Positions 26,668 through 29,902 of a DNA stretch of 31,473 bases are shown here, in pieces. The translations under genes were made by a program, and so were the position numbers. The stretch spans positions 1 through 31,473 of the IMG/VR virus record IMGVR_UViG_3300048584_000025. One strand, written 5' to 3'. This DNA comes from a virus. The first letter of the stretch is position 1, and each line of letters starts with the position of its first letter. Under the pieces are notes generated by a model. The model was not told where the DNA came from, searched no databases, and saw nothing but the letters and a program-made list of their open reading frames with translations.

Positions 26668-26972
26668 AACGCCACCTCCATGTTGAGAATGTCCATGGCC
26701 GCGTTACCCTCTGGAGTGAGTCTTGCGTGGATTCGCATCATTCGCCGCCCGTCAATTACGTCCGGGCGCTTTTCCAACCACACCAAATCCCAGTTTTCCA
26801 GAAATTTAAGAACTCCAGACACTTGGCAAGCCTCGATGCCAGTGGCGTCGGAGATTTCGCGGGCCGTGGTTTCCCTCGGCATGTCACCAAGGGCGAGAAA
26901 CACCCGAAGCTGCAAAATGCTGGTCATTTCGCAGGCGTGAGCGCGTTTTAGGATTGTTTGAAGATTTTTCAT
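26664..26972 (-). CDS. MarR-like winged-helix regulator
   Basis: 102 residues. SILQLRVFLALGDMPRETTA is helix 1-2, AREISDATGIEACQVSGVLK a clear helix-turn-helix, and WLEKRPDVIDGRRMMRIHARLTPEG the wing, the MarR-family order. The ATG overlaps the helicase-loader stop as ATGA. It could be a switch between early and late genes, or a DNA-binding accessory of replication. DNA-binding assignment is good; targets are unknown. Confidence 0.75.
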   Translation of the reverse strand: MKNLQTILKRAHACEMTSILQLRVFLALGDMPRETTAREISDATGIEACQVSGVLKFLENWDLVWLEKRPDVIDGRRMMRIHARLTPEGNAAMDILNMEVAL

Positions 26973-27736
26973 GGCACAGGAATCAAACGGGTTTCATCAA
27001 GGAGCCTCGACACGATGGGTGCAAACCGTGCGCGGGCACTTGCCGCACCGGACGGGTCCAAAGCCCGTGACAGTATCCCGTGAGCGCCGGAAGCCAGCGA
27101 TCCCTCAGTGATCAAATCCGCCGGATCGGGGTTCATGCTCCAATGGGTGGGCAGATTTTGCGCCAGCCGAGTTTCCATGAGGTTGAAAAATGCCGATTCC
27201 ACGGTGTCCGTCCACTTGTGCTTGCCCAGATCGTCCAGAAACAACACCTGGGAAGTCAGCCATGTCCGCATCCACTCACGCGCATTCTGGCCGTCAGTTT
27301 CTGAAAATTCCCGTTGCGCGGCCCACTGGAACGAATTCGCCGGGCACCATCCCACCGTGATGTCTTGGGCAATCGCCCGCTTGGCCATGAGCGCAAAAAC
27401 CCGGGTTTTGCACCGTCCGCTTGGCCCAATCAACGCCATGCTTTGCAAAATATCCTGATCCTTAATCATCGACCAAAGCGGCGTGTTGAATTTTTCGTGC
27501 GTTGTCGTCGTTTCGCGATAACGAGCTGGAACTGTTTTTTCCCAAATCGCTTCTCGCTTGACCTTGAGACGGTAGCGAGTCGCTGCCCGTTCCTGCTTGT
27601 CCACCTCATCCACGCACCCTGGACACAAAAACGCCATAGATGCGCGGATGTCGATGTCATGAATCATGATCGGCTCGTATTCGGTGACTTGCCCGCACGT
27701 CGTGCAAGCCCGCGTTGTTTGTTCGATGGTTTTCAT
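26969..27736 (-). CDS. DnaC-like helicase loader ATPase
   Basis: 255 residues from ATG 27736, five bases after the initiator stop; longer frames upstream overlap the initiator gene. The N-terminus has two CxxC pairs (C11/C14 and C38/C41), a likely zinc knuckle. The AAA+ core has Walker A GPSGRCKT at 104-111, with Cys at 109 where Gly is usual, Walker B VLFLDDL (164-170), a sensor-like N202 in HWSMN, and HGILSRAL, the usual arginine-finger region. The protein would load the host DnaB-type helicase at the phage origin, as lambda P or DnaC does. The neighbouring initiator gene contains the candidate origin. Confidence 0.85.
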   Translation of the reverse strand: MKTIEQTTRACTTCGQVTEYEPIMIHDIDIRASMAFLCPGCVDEVDKQERAATRYRLKVKREAIWEKTVPARYRETTTTHEKFNTPLWSMIKDQDILQSMALIGPSGRCKTRVFALMAKRAIAQDITVGWCPANSFQWAAQREFSETDGQNAREWMRTWLTSQVLFLDDLGKHKWTDTVESAFFNLMETRLAQNLPTHWSMNPDPADLITEGSLASGAHGILSRALDPSGAASARARFAPIVSRLLDETRLIPVP

Positions 27737-27740
27737 AATT

Positions 27741-28478
27741 TCAAAAATTCGTTTCGTCATCTTTTGGGTCATGGACCCAGGGTTTGGCATCCTTGAGATT
27801 AAGCACCGCACTCGGGCACCGTCCGCCAATGTCCGGTAAAATCCTCGGCTTGCCGTTAGTTGGGTTTTTCTGACTCGGAAGCCACCCTTGGCTTTTCCAC
27901 TTCCGCATTCCCGCTTGCCAGTCCTTCGATGGCGAAGATCCATTCCGCCACCCGTTAGACTCCCAGTGGTGAAACATCGACTCGCCATCACTCGCCGGCA
28001 TCCCCAGCTCAACCGCGAATGCTTTCAACTCCTCCAACGTCCCCCGCGCTTTATTACTCGTAAGAGTAATAATACTCTTCTCTTCTCTTCTCTGGTAACG
28101 CTCTTGCTCCGTTTTTGTAACGCTGCCACCGTTACCTGAGCGTAACTTTTCCACCCGCTTTTTGGTTAAAGCCCTTGATTTTGCGTTGTTTCCATTGTGC
28201 CGGTCGTATTCAGGAATAATCAAACGACCGTTTGACTCGATGAGCCAGCCAACCGATTTCATTGCTTGCACAAATTCAGGAACACCAGTGATGCGATTTA
28301 GTAACGCTGCCACCGTTACGGGAGCGTTACCGTCCCGGGACTGCTCATCGAACCACGCCCACACCCGCAGGAGCTTCCCGACAACAGCATCGGGATCAAT
28401 TCCCAGTATGCCGGCCATCTCATAAACCTCGGGTTTGTCCATCGTCGTTTTTTCAAATTTTAACCAGTCTCCAGCCAT
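27741..28478 (-). CDS. Phage replication initiator (lambda O / DnaT-like role)
   Basis: 245 residues. The N-terminal domain (residues 1-108: DWLKFEKTTMDKPEVYEMA, AVVGKLLRVWAWFDEQSRDG, VGWLIESNGRLIIPEYDRHN, AKSRALTKKR) is the winged-helix domain typical of phage replication initiators placed before DnaC-like loaders. A hydrophilic linker, about 109-145, is followed by a helical C-terminal domain with HHWESNGWRNGSSPSKDWQAGMRKW, as in DnaT/DUF1376-type proteins, which contacts the loader. The linker DNA is AT-rich and flanked by repeats, suggesting the origin lies inside this gene, as in lambda O. It is followed by the helicase loader five bases on. Confidence 0.82.
   Translation of the reverse strand: MAGDWLKFEKTTMDKPEVYEMAGILGIDPDAVVGKLLRVWAWFDEQSRDGNAPVTVAALLNRITGVPEFVQAMKSVGWLIESNGRLIIPEYDRHNGNNAKSRALTKKRVEKLRSGNGGSVTKTEQERYQRREEKSIITLTSNKARGTLEELKAFAVELGMPASDGESMFHHWESNGWRNGSSPSKDWQAGMRKWKSQGWLPSQKNPTNGKPRILPDIGGRCPSAVLNLKDAKPWVHDPKDDETNF
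28114..28143. repeat. Origin iteron copy 1
   Basis: Plus-strand copy beginning GTAACGCTGCCACCGTTAC (19 bases identical to copy 2) and ending AGCGTAAC. The ends are near-inverted halves of GTAACGCT. The coding strand reads it as Arg-Ser-Gly-Asn-Gly-Gly-Ser-Val-Thr. Confidence 0.85.
28301..28330. repeat. Origin iteron copy 2
   Basis: Plus-strand copy beginning GTAACGCTGCCACCGTTAC and ending AGCGTTAC, so its two ends are a perfect 8-bp inverted pair. It is shifted in reading frame relative to copy 1 (read as Gly-Asn-Ala-Pro-Val-Thr-Val-Ala-Ala-Leu). Confidence 0.85.
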
Positions 28479-28482
28479 AGTT

Positions 28483-29055
28483 TTAGTGTGTTGATGTAGA
28501 AAAAATGTGGCAAACGGTGTCAGTCCTCACGGCTTCCTGTTTGTCCGTCAGACGGGCAATCAGGCCATCGCCGCCGTTGAACCGGAACGGCACCGGCCCG
28601 CCTCGGTCAATGGTGGTGTAAATCTCGCAGCGAGGGAGCCGTGAAACCGCTTGTAAGCTCGCCAGCGGGACCAGAGCGCCATGGTTGACCCTGGCGCACG
28701 GATCGACCTGGAAGCACGGCACTGCTGGCCCCATGCGCCACATCGGAAACATGCCCTCGGCAAAAAGATCGAGCGTCACGTCGTCGAGTTTCCTCCACGC
28801 CTTGGCATTCTCAAATCTTCTTGTATGCCAAGGCTGGCGCAATAGCCGGTCAACCGCAGCCATCGGCCCGTGACCCTCCGCAGCCGAAAAATTAAAAAAC
28901 CGCAGCGCAATGTGGCAGTTGGAAACATAAAGTTTCGAGTCCCTCCCCCATGCCGGGCGGTGAAAAACATGCCCACTCATCGGATGGCAATAATATTCCA
29001 GTGACTCAACAGGCACCGGGTGGCGAAATGGCCGTTTCGAGGTTTCTAAAATCAT
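28483..29055 (-). CDS. Unknown early protein
   Basis: 190 residues from ATG 29055, which overlaps the integrase stop as ATGA; an upstream in-frame start lies inside the integrase remnant. MILETSKRPFRHPVPVESLE opens the protein. RDSKLYVSNCHIALRF and later VPLASLQAVSRLPRCEIYTT, GPVPFRFNGGDGLIARL alternate strands and short helices. The layout faintly recalls sliding-clamp-like folds (a D/S-x-x-L-Y-V-S/T-x-x-H stretch, then a late FxFxGGDGL), but this is only an impression. It is the last gene before the replication initiator, so a replication accessory role would make sense. Confidence 0.65.
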   Translation of the reverse strand: MILETSKRPFRHPVPVESLEYYCHPMSGHVFHRPAWGRDSKLYVSNCHIALRFFNFSAAEGHGPMAAVDRLLRQPWHTRRFENAKAWRKLDDVTLDLFAEGMFPMWRMGPAVPCFQVDPCARVNHGALVPLASLQAVSRLPRCEIYTTIDRGGPVPFRFNGGDGLIARLTDKQEAVRTDTVCHIFSTSTH

Positions 29056-29589
29056 GCTGTGCGACGGATGGGTAAAATGTTGGTTTCTTCGGCATCTAAC
29101 GGACTCCCCACCCGGGAAGCCAATTGTGGCAGGCAATGCACATAAATCTCGGTCGTCTCCATGTTGGCGTGGCCAAGCAGCTCTTGCAGTTCCGGCACCG
29201 TCCCCCCGCCCATGAGGTAAGCAGTTGCAAACCCGTGACGGAATGCGTGCGCGGTCACACGCTTGGACACTGCCGCCCTTCGCACGGCTACCTTGAGCGC
29301 TTTAGAAAACCCTTCAGCGCAGCGATGATGACGCCGTTTCGTCTTGGTTTGTGGGTCCACACTTTCCCCAGGCGCAGGCCACACCCAAAACCACGGCCAT
29401 TCACTCCCCGCCTTCGGATATTTCCGCAGGCGGGCGAAACGCTAAAAACTGCCGGACATGCGAGCGATAGGTTTCCATCGTAGCCCGCGCCTTTCGTTCT
29501 TCCCGCATACCTTTATCAAATAAAGCCATCGCCTCGCCCGCTTTCATATAAATCCAACTTTTGTTTGTGTAATTAGCTGTTCGCTTCAC
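29052..29589 (-). pseudogene. Broken IntI-type tyrosine recombinase
   Basis: Two pieces in different frames are joined near 29442. The first, from ATG 29547 or GTG 29589, contains TMETYRSHVRQFLAF, an N-terminal core-binding segment, then runs into a stop at 29403-29401. The second frame opens after a TAG at 29444-29442 with RLRKYPKAGSEWPWFWVWPA. This matches the stretch specific to integron-integrase-type recombinases just before the catalytic block. It continues with HAFRHGFATAYL (His and second Arg) and LLGHANMETTEIYVH (His and the Tyr nucleophile). About 165-180 residues remain of a usual 320-340. The part with the first catalytic Arg is missing, so recombination activity is not expected. 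An internal deletion explains both the loss and the frame change. Confidence 0.85.
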
Positions 29590-29902
29590 ATTCTTCGACC
29601 CACATTCGGATCATTGATTTCACGCTTGGAGCGCACACCGAGATGCAGTCTTGGTCCTTGCATCCCATGGAATACCTCCACTCCACCTTGACGATTCCGC
29701 CGTCATCATCCGCTTGGATCGGGCCGCCACATTCGGGGCATTTCCATGCGTGTTCAGGGATTCCACCGTGGCGACATATCAGAGCTGCCAGCCGTTTCGC
29801 GCCACCTGGCACAAGTTTGCCAGCCCACACGGACATGGAAAGCGAACAAGACGCGGATGGACAATCCGCCTTCTGGGGTGTTTCGGTGGTTTCTGGTTTC
29901 AT
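29573..29902 (-). CDS. Zinc-ribbon protein, Lar-like
   Basis: 109 residues, beginning MKPETTETPQKADCPSA. The conserved part is CPECGGPIQADDDGGIVKVE followed by GCKDQDCISVCAPS and a helix SVKSMIRMWVEECEA. A CPxCGG knuckle, a short sheet, a second cysteine pair and a helix with W near the end are the pattern of the Lar restriction-alleviation superfamily and related small phage zinc ribbons. If Lar-like, it would help the phage escape host type I restriction. The start overlaps a 20-codon open frame as ATGA. Family membership is probable, anti-restriction function less so. Confidence 0.6.
   Translation of the reverse strand: MKPETTETPQKADCPSASCSLSMSVWAGKLVPGGAKRLAALICRHGGIPEHAWKCPECGGPIQADDDGGIVKVEWRYSMGCKDQDCISVCAPSVKSMIRMWVEECEANS

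Follow-up and report, generated by a model that had tools for sequence, protein, structure and literature searches.

The region 28051-28330 of the window (the whole stretch of viral DNA analysed here, 31,473 nucleotides, IMG/VR record IMGVR_UViG_3300048584_000025) is very probably a phage replication origin located inside its own initiator gene, in the style of phage lambda and served by an initiator of a different family. This initiator family is widespread, and we found no description of an origin for it. The architecture described below is fixed across several bacterial phyla, and origins should therefore be predictable from sequence alone in many metagenomic phages.

Initiator gene, repeats and flanking elements

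The gene carrying the repeats had been proposed to encode a replication initiator, and the next gene a helicase loader; profile searches confirmed both assignments (Table 1). Residues 1-135 of the initiator, corresponding to its N-terminal domain, matched PHROG_2509 ('replication initiation protein', E=4.7e-51), which places the protein in this family by N-terminal profile match, and a second family, PHROG_9474, was matched with E=3.4e-28. A Pfam search with the initiator found no family, and a PDB sequence search gave no credible match. The AF2 model of residues 1-135, based on an input alignment of the window and scanned-locus sequences only, showed a mean pLDDT of 85.8; Foldseek analysis of this model returned nothing at E<=0.001, the matches being mostly generic winged-helix proteins. 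Elsewhere in the window (29052-29589, minus strand), a tyrosine integrase is encoded in two ORFs with the middle part seemingly absent; the catalytic part matches Pfam Phage_integrase (9e-15), the N-terminal SAM-like match is weak, and the two ORFs may represent a decayed integrase.

Two 30-bp copies of the repeat are found on the plus strand at 28117-28146 (GTAACGCTGCCACCGTTACCTGAGCGTAAC) and 28301-28330 (GTAACGCTGCCACCGTTACGGGAGCGTTAC). As stated in the preliminary description, they are identical at 27 of 30 positions, with 19 identical bases in a row, namely the first 19; the distance between them, previously given as 187 bp, is 184 bp from start to start (a gap of 154). An extra half-site assigned earlier to 28092 was not located there, GTAACGCT occurring instead at 28095-28102. 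On the gene strand, the repeat unit is a 19-bp interrupted palindrome, GTAACG-N7-CGTTAC, exact in both copies, with a flanking half-site 11 bp upstream of each palindrome (GTAACG in cluster 1 and GTTACG in cluster 2). In 100 shuffles, the motif GTWACGCT occurred 0.63 times on average and at most 3 times; the window contains six copies, of which five lie within 28095-28330. The count for GTAACG is 16, compared with a mean of 6.45 and a maximum of 14, and six of these copies fall in the same interval. Contigs usually contain just the expected pair of palindromes.

Table 1. Features of the putative intragenic origin and its surroundings (window coordinates)
Feature	Position	Strand	Description
Helicase loader gene	26969..27736	-	DnaC/IstB-like; phrog_50 E=3.3e-13; Pfam IstB E=3.9e-6
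Replication initiator gene	27741..28478	-	245 aa; N-terminal winged-helix domain, charged linker, C-terminal domain
Hairpin	28051..28072		TTATTACTC-TTAC-GAGTAATAA (gene strand); loop GTAA on plus strand
Purine tract	28075..28093	-	AGAGAAGAGAAGAGAAGAG (gene strand); candidate unwinding element or loading strip
Last half-site	28095..28100	-	CGTTAC, gene 379-; ends one base short of purine tract
Iteron cluster 2	28117..28146	-	Gene 333-362, linker; half-sites 28141-28146 (GTTACG variant), 28130-28135, 28117-28122 (gene 333, 344+, 357-)
Predicted post-wing helix	28134..28190	-	Codons 97-115; AF2, pLDDT about 70-80; residues 105, 109, 112 track iteron type
Iteron cluster 1	28301..28330	-	Gene 149-178, within winged-helix (DNA-binding-domain) code at DGNA loop; half-sites 28325-28330, 28314-28319, 28301-28306 (gene 149+, 160+, 173-)

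The set of relatives comprised 166 initiators under 90% identity, collected by a protein search of phage records and by scans of viral contigs and bacterial genomes, and originated from phages or prophages of Pseudomonadota, Verrucomicrobiota (Akkermansia), and Planctomycetota, as well as from unassigned viral contigs. When the same repeats were sought in these homologous genes, as had been suggested at the outset, they were found to recur at matching positions in very divergent initiators (Xanthomonas, Pseudomonas, enterobacterial, Akkermansia/Verrucomicrobia, and Planctomycetes relatives), with both the spacing and the abutting purine tract kept. Among GTAACG-type genes, nearly all have a site at gene position 149, and a few at 152 or 160, and their second cluster lies at gene positions of about 333-416, just ahead of the tract; in the epsilon15 branch, cluster 1 is located at 55-101 and uses the core GTCCGC. 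Sites are spaced by 11-12 bp on the same strand and by 13 bp across the palindrome, the +- spacing being most often 13 bp (101, 18, and 72 times in types A, C, and E, respectively). Weighing against the origin reading, three Verrucomicrobiaceae relatives (L239, L241, L242) show few or no recognisable repeats or purine tract despite GTAACG-type helix residues; their origins have possibly been relocated. Six enterobacterial relatives (L213, L217, L225, L231, L006, L014) carry a four-amino-acid (12-bp) insertion in the DGNA loop (gene 149-180) that adds one half-site, and two Pantoea/Erwinia genes (L238, L243) have a longer loop insertion with more sites. A DnaC-like loader is annotated as the neighbour in several phages, not in all, and no origin feature is annotated in the regions of the 15 relatives that were inspected.

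The position of the purine tract relative to the sites is nearly rigid: the last half-site lies 1-2 nt before the GAGAA-type tract in 86 of the 123 relatives having one; in a further 21 the gap is 12-13 bases, which corresponds to a shift back by one site position. Average AT content is just slightly raised in the 40 nt beyond the tract (50%, vs 47% upstream and 42% farther downstream). The perfect 9-bp inverted repeat noted earlier in the window is present, its arms (28051-28059 and 28064-28072) being separated by a 4-base loop, and L003 has a hairpin with another stem, TATTCTTACTC-TTAC-GAGTAAGAATA, which differs from that of the window by compensating changes. With arms of at least 8, loops of 3-5, and perfect pairing required, hairpins were found up to 70 nt past the tract in 13 of 141 genes, compared with 0 and 0 in two control stretches. 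Their stems are mostly unrelated, and the loop is TTAC, TAAC, or TGAC in ten of the 13, so that the opposite strand presents a GTNA loop, usually closed by a C-G pair. Since GNNA-type DNA loops are very stable, this TNAC/GTNA hairpin suggests a possible single-strand signal. At the place of the hairpin, 30 of 139 relatives (e.g., L018, L224, L256) have two C-runs (C5+) flanking TTA or TAA, often followed by a G-run; none occurs in the control stretches.

Alternatively, the true origin may lie elsewhere, and the sites may be operators for repression or timing of initiator transcription by the initiator itself. The initiator would bind them in either case, and protein bound to the part of the array near the start of the gene could block transcription; an operator, however, needs neither a tract 1-2 bases past the last site, nor a hairpin, nor another cluster roughly 184 bp into the gene, and the array parallels the lambda ori. 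We regard this possibility as unlikely, and autoregulation could coexist with origin function.

Core types and the residues that follow them

The half-site core differs among relatives and includes GTAACG, GTCACG (with GTCACA), GTGACG, GTCCGC, GTCCCC, GTAGAC, and other types. When clusters 1 and 2 were typed separately, their cores agreed in 126 of 140 genes. The nearest relatives of the window (L003 and L021, overall DNA identity of 74%) are GTCACG-type: GTAACG/GTTACG of the window is replaced by GTCACG at gene positions 149, 160, 333, and 344, and CGTTAC by CGTGAC at 357, the switch being incomplete at position 173. A second clade contains the GTAACG-type L254 and its GTCACG-type sisters L244, L247, and L251. 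Residue 51, which is encoded by the site itself, follows the DNA, with asparagine for GGTAAC, histidine for GGTCAC, and aspartate in a GTGACG-type gene.

A mutual-information scan of all columns 1-112, comparing GTAAC-core with GTSAC-core genes, ranked this column first (0.77 bits), followed by column 109 (0.71 bits; V vs K/Q), column 105 (0.65 bits; T/G vs A/D/S), and columns 112 and 110 (0.48 and 0.42 bits), and a weaker type signal was found in the usual recognition helix (69-75). Residues 105, 109, and 112 lie on one face of a helix, and in the model the post-wing helix 97-115 is a candidate for the element reading the half-site core. A tree calculated without the loop and the helix requires a minimum of 17 type changes, but most of its branches lack good support; the starred branches hold only three independent A/non-A pairs, mostly concordant at 105 and 109 and too few for significance. 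Two initiator genes whose C-terminal parts are nearly identical but whose sites differ are present on the contig of L032 (IMGVR_UViG_3300027736_000106; L349). The gene near 30.5 kb has sites of the GTAACG type (30405/30589), and the gene near 2.0 kb, which encodes D51 and M109, has GTGACG/CGTAAC sites (1987/2176); the pair may represent two origins of different specificity, a swap of the N-domain cassette, or an assembly chimera.

These data bear on whether another phage or host protein (e.g., a partition or nucleoid protein) binds the sites, with the initiator gene merely hosting them. The assignment of the initiator as the binder is itself based on sequence, which leaves some room for such a protein; on the other hand, the core type tracks initiator residues 105 and 109 both family-wide and in sister pairs, and the same architecture is found in hosts of several phyla. 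We therefore consider a different binder very unlikely.

Selection on the DNA of the sites

In the window initiator gene, the top 6-mer exceeds that of all 200 synonymous-codon shuffles, and synonymous shuffling of six other window genes revealed no comparable repeats. For 102 of the 115 genes in the first set of relatives, the most frequent 6-mer gave p<=0.05 when compared with synonymous-codon shuffles of that gene. Lambda O gave p=0.175 in the same test; lambda iterons are longer and more degenerate, and the 6-mer shuffle is not a universal detector because it misses them. Codon choice at the sites is fixed: Gly50, in the DGNA loop, is encoded by GGT in all 60 GTAACG-type genes, compared with 209 of 970 (22%) other glycines (p=5e-38), and the asparagine of the same loop is AAC in 60/60. 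Similarly, the leucine of the LP motif preceding the tract sits in GTTAC in 57 of 57 genes, and TTA accounts for 121 of 1186 leucines outside the sites.

As previously noted, the two window copies are read in different frames: they start at gene positions 149 and 333, and 3 does not divide the offset of 184. Sites across relatives occur in several frames. From the frames, the preliminary description had concluded that protein repetition does not account for the conservation; this conclusion holds on codon choice, shuffles, and core switching, whereas the frame argument alone is weaker, as in most relatives many sites share one frame, encoding GNA or SVT. Taken together, the fixed codon choice, the excess over shuffles, and the use of several frames mean that conservation at the protein level fails to explain the repeats. 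That the DNA repeats are a by-product of useful protein motifs (GNA..SVT), as the consistent frame of GNA or SVT in most relatives might suggest, is extremely improbable and was rejected on synonymous shuffles and on codon choice fixed well beyond the amino acids, other cores moreover placing other residues at the same positions (GHA for GTCACG and GDA for GTGACG).

If the region is an intragenic origin, as we favour, the winged-helix domain would fill the half-sites of both clusters and draw the clusters together, with helix 97-115 reading the core. The initiator assembly would then open the DNA at the purine tract, where the host DnaB helicase would be delivered by initiator and DnaC-like loader; the hairpin may serve in docking or priming. 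We infer binding, opening, and loading alike from sequence, and binding of the iterons by the initiator is indirectly supported by the co-variation of the core with the residues described above. An origin embedded in the initiator gene would make protein and binding site move and change as one unit, so that the recognition code could switch repeatedly. The GC-skew minimum of the window is at 29830, which is not diagnostic because the genes of the contig lie mostly on one strand.

More tentatively, with confidence slightly short of even, we propose that the family constitutes a natural protein-DNA specificity series, in which a non-canonical post-wing reading helix (105/109/112) would set the core, code and lock would have co-switched many times to yield origins that are orthogonal to one another and of which one phage may carry two, and the template-strand hairpin with its GTNA loop would be an added helicase- or primase-docking signal. 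Concerted switching of the half-site and a few residues would make initiator-origin co-evolution without loss of function testable with natural proteins, and the family offers orthogonal compact origins for plasmids.

Relation to lambda and other known origins

The lambda iteron is a 19-bp imperfect inverted repeat, and both the iterons and an AT-rich tract are located inside O (PMC7466680). In the lambda sequence, O contains four annotated iterons, followed by an A/G-rich tract, an inverted repeat, and then P. The region analysed here resembles the lambda ori (and the Stx phage ori) in having iterons within the initiator coding sequence, inverted repeats of about 19 bp (GTAACG-N7-CGTTAC, the 13-bp offset being the commonest +- spacing), an AT- or purine-rich tract beside the last iteron, at which unwinding would occur, an inverted repeat, and an adjoining helicase-loader gene. 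The lambda O/P-style origin proposed earlier thus holds for the order of iterons, purine tract, hairpin, and loader; it does not extend to the initiator, which is not detectably lambda O and falls outside the lambda O-type initiators (phrog_277 and related O-like families), or to the location of one cluster in the code for the DNA-binding domain instead of the linker. Sequence homology between the two initiators was undetected, lambda O matching phrog_277, 2365, 391, and others, none of them common to the window protein. In contrast to lambda, the loader is DnaC/IstB-like and not P-like, half-sites occur every 11-13 bp, and the tract is of the GAGAA type.

The window protein belongs with the PHROG_2509 / 9474 / 3926 initiators (epsilon15, TL-2011b, phiPSA1, and the Rac-type ydaU of Escherichia coli 442/2), and its relatives in the phage collection share the architecture. 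Rac carries an active oriJ (PMC3945230). Identity of the E. coli K-12 oriJ with the element described here was considered and rejected, K-12 ydaU being a DUF1376 protein without these sites. K-12 Rac ydaU (L350, with a different N-domain) has linker repeats of its own, TGTTCAAACA and GTGTTTGAACA, at gene positions 365-480, together with a similar C-run element; these repeats are perhaps the site of oriJ.

Searching the literature for the present repeat in connection with phage replication gave no hit. A few lambdoid phages are already known to have intragenic origins and origin-specific initiators; as far as the accessible literature shows, the new elements are how broad the family is, a second cluster placed in the code for the DNA-binding domain, a tract rigidly linked to the sites, core switching in concert with candidate residues, and the TNAC hairpin. 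Lambda, P22, and L carry different iterons in the coding regions of distantly related ori-binding proteins, and the specificities of their replication genes differ, phage L gene 18 containing six 11-bp repeats (PMC8022706). Gene 18 of P22 and of L thus also contains intragenic repeats, although both the repeats and the initiator family differ from those of the window. That work compares three phages, whereas the initiators analysed here form one family with a shared layout, many core types, and candidate specificity residues.
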